Part shown: one piece after another, positions 27,077-30,000 of the stretch
Position numbering within the stretch: the stretch's first letter is position 1
Layout: each line of letters opens with the position of its first letter
Assembly (NCBI GenBank): GCA_963662155.1
Contig: OY759263.1
Span: forward strand, 27,179,048 to 27,243,047
DNA from: Lamellibrachia columna
Lineage: Eukaryota > Annelida > Polychaeta > Sabellida > Siboglinidae
Direction of reading: 5' to 3'
DNA length: 64,000 nucleotides
Translations under genes and position numbers: made by a program
The notes under the pieces: model-generated
Database searches by the model: none
Seen by the model: the letters and a program-made list of their open reading frames with translations, nothing else
Told to the model about the DNA's origin: nothing

Positions 27077-30000
27077 CTACAGTGGCATCATGCTGGGTTT
27101 CTTTCTCTTATTGAGATATAATATCAAACCGATTGATGCAACAATGGCCACGACCTACAACAGACAGATAAAACGCGGTTGAACAACGGATTGAATAACG
27201 GACAATGTTGAATGACGCTCGATACGACAGTTCCGTGCACGTTCTTAGAAATAATGTTTGCTTTATGAGAAACGCTCCGGGAAGACATAATATTAAAATT
27301 GAAGACACACGCATGCGTCTACTGCATTACTCGCAGTATTACGAGTCACAATGACAAGAGTCGCAGTAAAAAGAGTCACAATAACATAAGCAATAGTAAC
27401 ACAAGTCATATTAATACGATTCACAGTAACACGAGTGCTAGAAACATGACCCATTATATCATGACTCGCTGTAACATGAGTCACAGTAATATGGGTCACA
27501 GCAACGTGACCCACAGTTACACGAGTCGCAATGACAAGAGTCATAATAACAAGAAACACATTAATTATAGTCACACTAACACGAGTCCTAGTGATTTGAC
27601 TCATTATATCATGACTCGCTGTAACATGAATCAGGATAACACGAGTAACAATAAAATGAATCATAGTAACATGAGTCACAGAAACATGAGTCATAATAAC
27701 AAAAAGTCACATTAACATGAATCATGTTAACATGAGTATCAATAACACGAGTCCTAGTAACATGACTCGCTATATCATAACTCAACGTGACATCAATCCA
27801 TGTAACAAGAATGAAACACAAGTTATGTAACAGTTCCAACATCATTTGTATCAAGGGTGTTGTGATAATTACGTGCGATGAGTCATCATGGAACAGCCCA
27901 TAACGAGAAATAAAATTGTTCTCTCTCGTGCCGGGGAGGGGTAGTCTCCCTCGTGCCGGGGGATCGAGTACACCAGCCTTTCTGTGTGTACATGTATGTG
28001 TGTGGTTAATCCACTTTGTCATTACGCCCCTACTATGGAACTTGTAGACAATCGTAACGTGATTGTCACTCCCATGTAAGGGCTTTTCGGCATTCCATGC
28101 CTATTATTAATATGATATTAAATAAATGGAATGCCATTTTTCTCGCTCATACATGTTTCCAGTTATGAATGATATTTACATAAACTAGCTCAGGCTCCAC
28201 GCCAGTTTATTATGAACAAGTCATCATATTTAGTACCAGACGTTTATTAATGACACAAGACGCAGGCATGCGAAACAACGCTAGCGTCAATATGCCTGCC
28301 TCTATAATTCCAATGGCGACAACAACAGTTATAACGTCACTACCCGTACCTCTATGTAACGGCGGCAACAGCAAAGTATACATCAGTACACCAACATCTA
28401 TGAGTATAACAGCGGAAACAAAATGATGATGTCAGTGCACCTACCTCAATGAGTATAAAGGCGGCAACAAAAATGATGACGTCATTATACCTACCTCTAT
28501 GAGTATAACGGCGGCAACAGCAATGGTGACGTCAGTATACCTACCTCTATGAGCATAACGGCGGCAACAACAATGATGACGTCAGTATACCTACCTCTAT
28601 GAGTATAAAGGCCTCAACAACAATGATGACGTCAGTATACCTACCTCTATGAGTATAACGGCGGCAACAACAATGATGACGTTAGTATGCCCTCCTCTAT
28701 GAATATAACGGCGGCAACAACAATGATGACGTCAGTATACCTACCTCTATGAGTATAAAGGCGGCAACAACAATGATGACGTCAGTATACTTACCTCTAT
28801 GAGTATAACGGCGGCAACAACAATGATGACGTCAGTATACCTACCTCTATGAGTATAAAGGCGGCAACAACAATGATGACGTCAGTATACCTACCTCTAT
28901 GAGTATAACGGCAGCAACAACAATGATGACGTCAGTATACCTACCTCTATGAGTATAAAGGCGGCAACAACAATGATGACGTCAGTATACCTACCTCTAT
29001 GAGTATAACGGCAGCAACAACAATGAGTGCGATCTTGATGTACTGGAGTAATACTGCGTACACCTTGTCGTAGCACGGCTGTAAAAAGGCCCAGTAATAA
29101 GTCAACGTTGTACATTATAGTGCGTTCTCATAGAAAAAACCACAATGTGCTTTACAAACATTACGACATGTGAATAGATATGCATATAGTAGTACACCAC
29201 AGATTTTGTTTTACGCCGGCGGGTAATGATTATATATGTCTAGCAGAGTGGCCCGAAAAAAACAATATCGAGCAGACAGACATGATTGAGCAGAATTACA
29301 TGGATAAATATAAGTGTAAAGACATAGAAGTGAAGACGAGCATGAGGCAAGACAAGAAGAAGTGAGTCGACCACCTTGCCATGGAATCAGAGGAAGCAGC
29401 ACGTAATTGAAGAATGAAATATTATAGAACGTGTAGTGGAATGGCAAGCAACTCTATACATCACGTTTGTGGACTTTAAAAAGCGAGAGAGCTATGGAGT
29501 TCCACGCAAGATAATCCACATTTTTGAGATGTTATACGAAAATAGTGAATGTGCAGTGTTAGACGAAGGTGAGGAATCTGAGTGGTTCAAAGTTAAAACC
29601 GGAGTTAGACAGGGATATGTAATGCCTGGATTTATCTTCTTGTGGTTGTGGACTGGATAACAGAAAAACAACAACAGGAAATAAAACAGGGATAAAACGG
29701 AACTTCACGTCAAAACTAGAGGACCTGGACTTTGCCGACGACATAGCACTCATGTCATTATGCTACACACACATGCAAACAAAGAAAAGACAACTGAATC
29801 AATTTGCAGCAAGGACAGGACTAAGAATAAATAAAAAGAAAACTCAAGTATTGAGGATAAACAGCAAGTGCAAAAACAGAATTGATAACACAATTCGCAA
29901 AGCTAGGGTATCTTTCGTGAAGCTAAAGCAAAGTGTGGAGTTCAAATATATACACGTTGAGATTTAAATTGAGGCTTTTTAATACACTGGTTAAACCAGT

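Follow-up and report, generated by a model that had tools for sequence, protein, structure and literature searches.

The window, that is, the whole 64-kb stretch of Lamellibrachia columna DNA that was analysed, carries on its minus strand a gene of eight exons (gene C) running from 40144 to 27077, with a coding sequence of 888 nt, no internal stop and a product of 295 residues. The exons were placed by mapping the Lamellibrachia satsuma hypothetical protein P0001 on the window and by reading the flanks, a procedure that replaced an earlier enumeration of splice sites for the missing exons (20 candidates). The encoded protein is a tetraspanin: it matched Pfam PF00335 with 116.2 bits against a curated cut-off of 32.1 (E 2.3e-33), and the CCG of the large loop is present in exon 6. 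It is 96% identical to P0001 over 278 residues. In a protein search with a mixed query, of which the best eight matches were listed, the second match was a Ridgeia piscesae tetraspanin and the remaining six were JGI proteins 24-31% identical. With L. satsuma and Ridgeia proteins as the closest ones, gene C points to a vestimentiferan annelid, and an amphioxus origin of the window, first suggested by the literature on boundary-spanning repeats, was rejected.

The window apparently also holds exons that we group into at least three further tetraspanin genes. Exon 5 measures 80 nt in three of the tetraspanin genes of the window and exon 7 measures 84 nt in two of them; the open frame around 8416-8619, taken alone, had no Pfam match. 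The paralogous exon at 52104-52021 has the 84-nt length and the donor position of exon 7 of gene C, which, together with the L. satsuma protein model, supports the exon 7 donor at 28994. This model joins ILIE to VVAIVASI exactly, as expected from the first donor of exon 7, and the exon pairs at both array sites described below are joined exactly in it, the model being a predicted protein only. After VVAIVASI it departs from gene C; a weak match to its end on the minus strand at 26188-26223 (75% of 12 residues, E 1.4) could reflect chance, an error of prediction or a different last exon. In the Ridgeia protein model the final residues are ILLEVRVHTFC, which resemble the intron past the same donor and differ from the repeat, so that the exon 7 array is perhaps absent in Ridgeia or the Ridgeia model is perhaps that of a paralog.

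Other observations in the window concern a donor-like string and several repeats and open frames. The string AGAG/GTAGGT, the same as at exon 7, lies at 27063-27076, eight bases past the stop codon of exon 8. A (CCGC)123 tract occupies 55237-55730, and an open frame at 9735-10127 spans a 60-bp repeat present in four copies. LINE-like fragments are found on the minus strand at 12651-14210, and 13560-14210 contains an endonuclease domain (PF14529) that scores above cut-off. On the plus strand, an open frame at 52171-52527, whose ankyrin match is weak and falls below cut-off, adjoins exon 7 of gene D.

Table 1 Features of gene C, its two boundary arrays and the further tetraspanin exons, in window positions
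Feature	Position	Strand	Basis
Exon 1, coding part	40088..40144	-	P0001 mapping, flanks
Exon 2, TM1-TM2, 237 nt	38206..38442	-	P0001 mapping, flanks
38-bp mirage array: 3' splice site and exon 3 start, 8 extra acceptors upstream	37372..37699	-	TRF, acceptor reading
Exon 3, TM3, 75 nt	37312..37386	-	P0001 mapping, flanks
Exon 4, 55 nt	32976..33030	-	P0001 mapping, flanks
Exon 5, 80 nt	31777..31856	-	P0001 mapping, flanks
Exon 6, large extracellular loop, 222 nt	31109..31330	-	P0001 mapping
Exon 7, 84 nt, TM4 start; last 32 nt inside repeat unit	28995..29078	-	P0001 mapping, paralog exon
50-bp mirage array: exon 7 end and 5' splice site	28285..29026	-	TRF, donor reading
True donor GTAGGT of exon 7	28989..28994	-	Flank reading, paralog exon, L. 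satsuma protein model
GTAAGT donor copy, U1 pairing slightly above the true donor	28789..28794	-	Sequence and computed pairing
Exon 8, rest of TM4, tail and stop	27077..27154	-	Flank reading
Further tetraspanin exons	4953-8619	+	P0001 mapping, flanks
Further tetraspanin exons	21676-22574	+	P0001 mapping, flanks
Further tetraspanin gene (gene D), exons	52021-61015	-	P0001 mapping, flanks

Tandem arrays at two splice boundaries of gene C

Tandem repeats lying over exon/intron boundaries were described in amphioxus as "mirages", in Adh3, the globin genes BflGb6 and BflGb9, TnC and PGBD5 in the parts of those reports that concern us (PMC3087553, PMC3902484). A TRF run on the whole 64-kb window found one such array at the end of exon 7, with a period of 50, 14.9 copies and 87% matches. 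The first-pass annotation had described this exon end and its 5' splice site as amplified into a minisatellite, which the TRF run confirmed, and had started the array at 28330, a position that omits the last degenerate copy and was moved to 28285. The consensus unit, in minus-strand orientation, reads TCATTGTTGTTGCCGCCGTTATACTCATAGAG on the exon side of the boundary followed by GTAGGTATACTGACGTCA on the intron side. The unit therefore spans the boundary, with 32 nt of the end of exon 7 and 18 nt of the intron, close to the 30 and 20 nt estimated at first.

After the true donor at 28994, 14 copies follow on the minus strand. GT is kept in 12 of them, so that many copies carry splice signals, as in mirages, and the row of about 12 extra 5' splice sites announced by the first-pass annotation holds. 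Ten of the 14 present GAG/GTAGGT or GAG/GTAAGT, in agreement with its statement that most copies keep the former string. GT is missing from the copies at 28694 (GAGGGC) and 28299 (GCAGGC), and the donors at 28395 (GAT/GTTGGT) and 28349 (GTACGG) are weak. One copy, near 28790, had been proposed to match the donor consensus better than the true site; GTAAGT is indeed found at 28794, but the gain in computed U1 pairing is slight (-10.4 against -10.1 kcal/mol for the true donor).

We found also a mirror arrangement at the other type of boundary, upstream of exon 3. There the 38-bp unit consists of TTACTTTGTTTCAG, the end of intron 2, then TACGTGTCGATAGTG and nine further bases, the start of exon 3, and it spans the boundary with 14 nt of intron and 24 nt of exon-like sequence. 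Eight further acceptors precede the true one at 37386, and AG is kept in seven of these. A self-match at offset 38 contains a six-base run, TTACTT, from 24 nt inside exon 3, which suggests that the first duplication of this array may have been bounded by this short direct repeat. A (TATTG)12 tract at 37245-37306 starts five bases past the end of exon 3, and exon 3 thus has tandem repeats on both flanks.

Copy divergence, motif conservation and chance placement

Divergence is graded along the exon 7 array. The eleven exon-side units differ from the consensus at 0-5 of the 50 positions, eight of them at 0 or 1, and the four units deepest in the intron differ at 6, 13, 25 and 13 positions in an ungapped comparison. 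Point changes separate the copies, and two copies are shortened by 1 and 4 bases. Two pairs of units match at all 50 positions, the exon unit at 28994 with that at 28894 and the unit at 28944 with that at 28844, so the outermost 100 bp of the array duplicate the next 100 bp exactly. From this exact match we infer that the array grows or is homogenised at its exon side, and that the functional edge of exon 7 was recently recopied by the array or was a recent source of copies. Most likely the array was derived from the exon, and less probably the reverse, since exon 7 is conserved tetraspanin coding sequence, as indicated by the identity with L. satsuma and the Pfam match given above.

The donor 9-mer was not preferentially conserved in the 14 extra copies, with 1.11 changes per column against 1.17 in the rest of the unit, and 24 of the 50 nine-column windows matched or undercut it. 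Likewise, the eight additional acceptor copies at exon 3 show no special preservation of TTTCAG (9 changes; as few or fewer in 32 of 38 windows). In the donor comparison, changes were scored against the copy at 28644, gaps included. There was no signal of selection for or against the donor motif, and no sign in either array that splice signals are kept, at the little power that 14 and 8 copies allow. An RNA structure hiding the copies was also rejected, exon 7 with its array giving a z score of -0.33 and 7 of 20 shuffles folding at least as well.

The 29 boundaries of the 16 mapped exons were scanned over +/-2,500 bases at a threshold of 68%; two have tandem copies (8 and 13 extra), and the boundary at 54670 has a single weak match that is probably chance. 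TRF returned 63 tandem-repeat rows in the 64-kb window, among which 15 arrays, obtained by hand-merging rows with a period of at least 10 and a length of at least 100, cover 7,654 bases (12% of the window). When these 15 arrays were placed at random in 20,000 trials, those covering a mapped boundary numbered 2.2 on average, and two or more in 70% of the trials. The observed number, two of 29 mapped boundaries inside arrays, matches this expectation, the comparison having little power with boundaries from 16 mapped exons only. Boundary arrays are thus not enriched in the window, and a special pull of minisatellites to splice boundaries is not supported. A 24-base piece of the unit had no exact match in prokaryote or in viral contigs, as expected for an animal locus.

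Predicted products and choice of the splice sites

If the true donor were passed over, 15 new residues would follow those of exon 7 and the frame would close at a TAG lying 2 nt short of the second donor. This stop falls within the first extra unit, 52 nt before the third donor and further from the later ones. All 14 downstream donors are therefore predicted to encode one 285-residue protein (270 + 15) without the normal tail, their products differing only in the untranslated stretch past the stop. The altered TM4 is still hydrophobic, with 19-residue averages of 1.79-2.69 in six windows. The earlier expectation that use of a copy shifts the frame and changes TM4 and the tail is thus only partly right, the copies sharing one stop and giving the same product. 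At the exon 3 array, a transcript spliced at any of the eight upstream acceptor positions would meet a stop codon once 10 or 16 residues of exon 3 had been read. Because the other donors and acceptors give early stops, the full-length protein needs the exon-proximal site at both arrays. A stop codon well upstream of an exon junction marks an mRNA for nonsense-mediated decay. With the stop at least 52 nt before the junction, transcripts from the third donor onward are probable targets of this pathway.

We consider it likely that the exon 7 array is a splice-boundary mirage in which the exon-side donor is used and the copies are a passive by-product. The anatomy of the array is read directly from the DNA, and its history is reconstructed from it. 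A tandem duplication would have straddled by chance the boundary of exon 7 and intron 7 and then expanded into the intron, the exon-proximal copy serving as the working exon end and the other 14 copies being intronic. Splice sites are paired across short exons, a principle known as exon definition. The first donor would then most likely be chosen since, with the acceptor of exon 7, it bounds a short 84-nt exon, and by the same pairing the acceptor chosen at exon 3 would be the last in its array. Whenever a new duplication took in the boundary, its outer copy would assume the role of exon end and the former boundary would turn intronic; the protein would thereby remain unchanged, and selection would tolerate growth of the array. 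Occasional use of a copy would give the single tail-less tetraspanin, or, from the third donor on, an mRNA that is probably decayed. The first-pass annotation had left a choice between an array offering many donors and one demanding selection of the first site; the join in the L. satsuma model, the 84-nt paralogous exon and the donor motif without conservation appear to support the second alternative better. What counts against a bystander role is that ten of the 14 copies carry a full strong donor, one of which pairs slightly better with U1. Nor should this role be assumed, since the minisatellite of human IFI6 (6-16) contains multiple splice donors and two of its downstream repeat units are used as donors, according to the part of the source that treats it (PMC4526556, citing Turri 1995).

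Alternative use of the donor copies, as in IFI6, is the first of the other readings, and we regard it as unlikely. With one truncated product common to all copies, the array would then work as a two-state switch between the full-length form and a tail-less form or a decayed mRNA. A strong donor in ten of the 14 extra copies, one product from all of them, with the stop 2 nt before the junction at the second donor, which would escape decay, and at least 52 nt before it at the later ones, and an altered TM4 that keeps its hydrophobic averages are all consistent with such a switch, as is the IFI6 precedent in the part consulted (PMC4526556). However, the donor motif shows no preferential conservation in the copies, the L. 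satsuma model takes the first donor, and normal splicing is reported for the amphioxus mirages (PMC3087553, PMC3902484).

Quite improbable in our view is a further-reaching version, in which the exon edge would be the self-renewing end of the array and the copies a switch tuned by copy number, array length setting how much product an individual makes from the gene. Recent recopying of the exon edge is supported by the exact 100-bp match. In this version each expansion would recopy the functional donor; the speculative half is that the fraction of transcripts slipping to a downstream copy would give the one tail-less tetraspanin or a decayed mRNA.

The array might otherwise act uncut, as a cluster of U1-binding sites that would strengthen recognition of exon 7 or guard the intron from early polyadenylation. 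In the 550 nt that follow the true donor, ten more strong U1-pairing sites are predicted, and the intronic minisatellite CeRep25B was linked statistically to multiple splicing decisions of C. elegans in the portion of that report concerned; we nevertheless judge this very improbable, as the U1-pairing 9-mer is not preferentially conserved and the acceptor array of gene C would need a separate explanation. Finally, an assembly artefact, the animal itself having no array or one that differs greatly in length, has a precedent in one amphioxus mirage apparently misassembled in a genome draft, according to part of that report (PMC3087553), but is highly improbable here, because the point changes, the losses of 1 and 4 bases and the gradient of divergence are unlike a simple assembly duplication and gene C holds two different arrays of this kind.

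Comparison with known repeated splice boundaries

The mirage reading that we prefer places gene C beside the amphioxus genes, in which, as far as the passages concerned report, mirages leave splicing undisturbed (PMC3087553, PMC3902484) and copy number varying between haplotypes or cells is a trait of mirages. Both the amphioxus mirages so described and the gene C arrays have repeats that span the boundary, AG or GT in many but not all copies, and examples at 5' and at 3' boundaries. In the amphioxus globin mirage, the boundaries of the cluster are described as escaping homogenisation (PMC3087553, in part), whereas in gene C divergence is confined to the intron end, and the exon-side copy matches an inner one exactly. 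The taxon of discovery, a cephalochordate, is a non-structural feature in which gene C differs, its best matches being siboglinid annelids. Units of amphioxus mirages are given as 10-72 bp for Adh3 and 150-160 bp for the globins in the parts of the reports that treat them. Gene C, in an annelid tubeworm host, has its arrays at two boundaries of one gene, with units of 50 and 38 bp. The IFI6 unit is about 12 bp long. Both IFI6 and gene C have rows of repeated donors at an exon end; downstream use is reported for IFI6 (PMC4526556) and would be one possible reading for gene C.

In human genes within segmental duplications, variable internal tandem repeats, some of them at exon-intron boundaries, can alter introns and exons (PMC2812944, in part). 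About half of these repeats are coding and some are said to make new introns, whereas the copies of gene C are intronic under the gene model. For earthworm metallothionein, the portion of the report concerned describes intron minisatellites and mentions exon duplications outside the final transcript, and no repeated splice boundaries are described in it. Among the matches listed from openly licensed literature, there was no report of an annelid mirage, which is a weak absence. The exon 7 array is a real, well-formed mirage, one of two in gene C, in a phylum for which these listed matches held no report.

An annelid thus joins amphioxus in showing that splice boundaries can be amplified into minisatellites, here with both boundary types in one gene. 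The chance estimate from random placement suggests that mirages require no special mechanism, dense minisatellites occasionally straddling exon edges. Gene C is a natural setting in which to study the choice of one among about a dozen near-identical donors by the splicing machinery, and the turnover of exon edges and introns in minisatellite-rich genomes.
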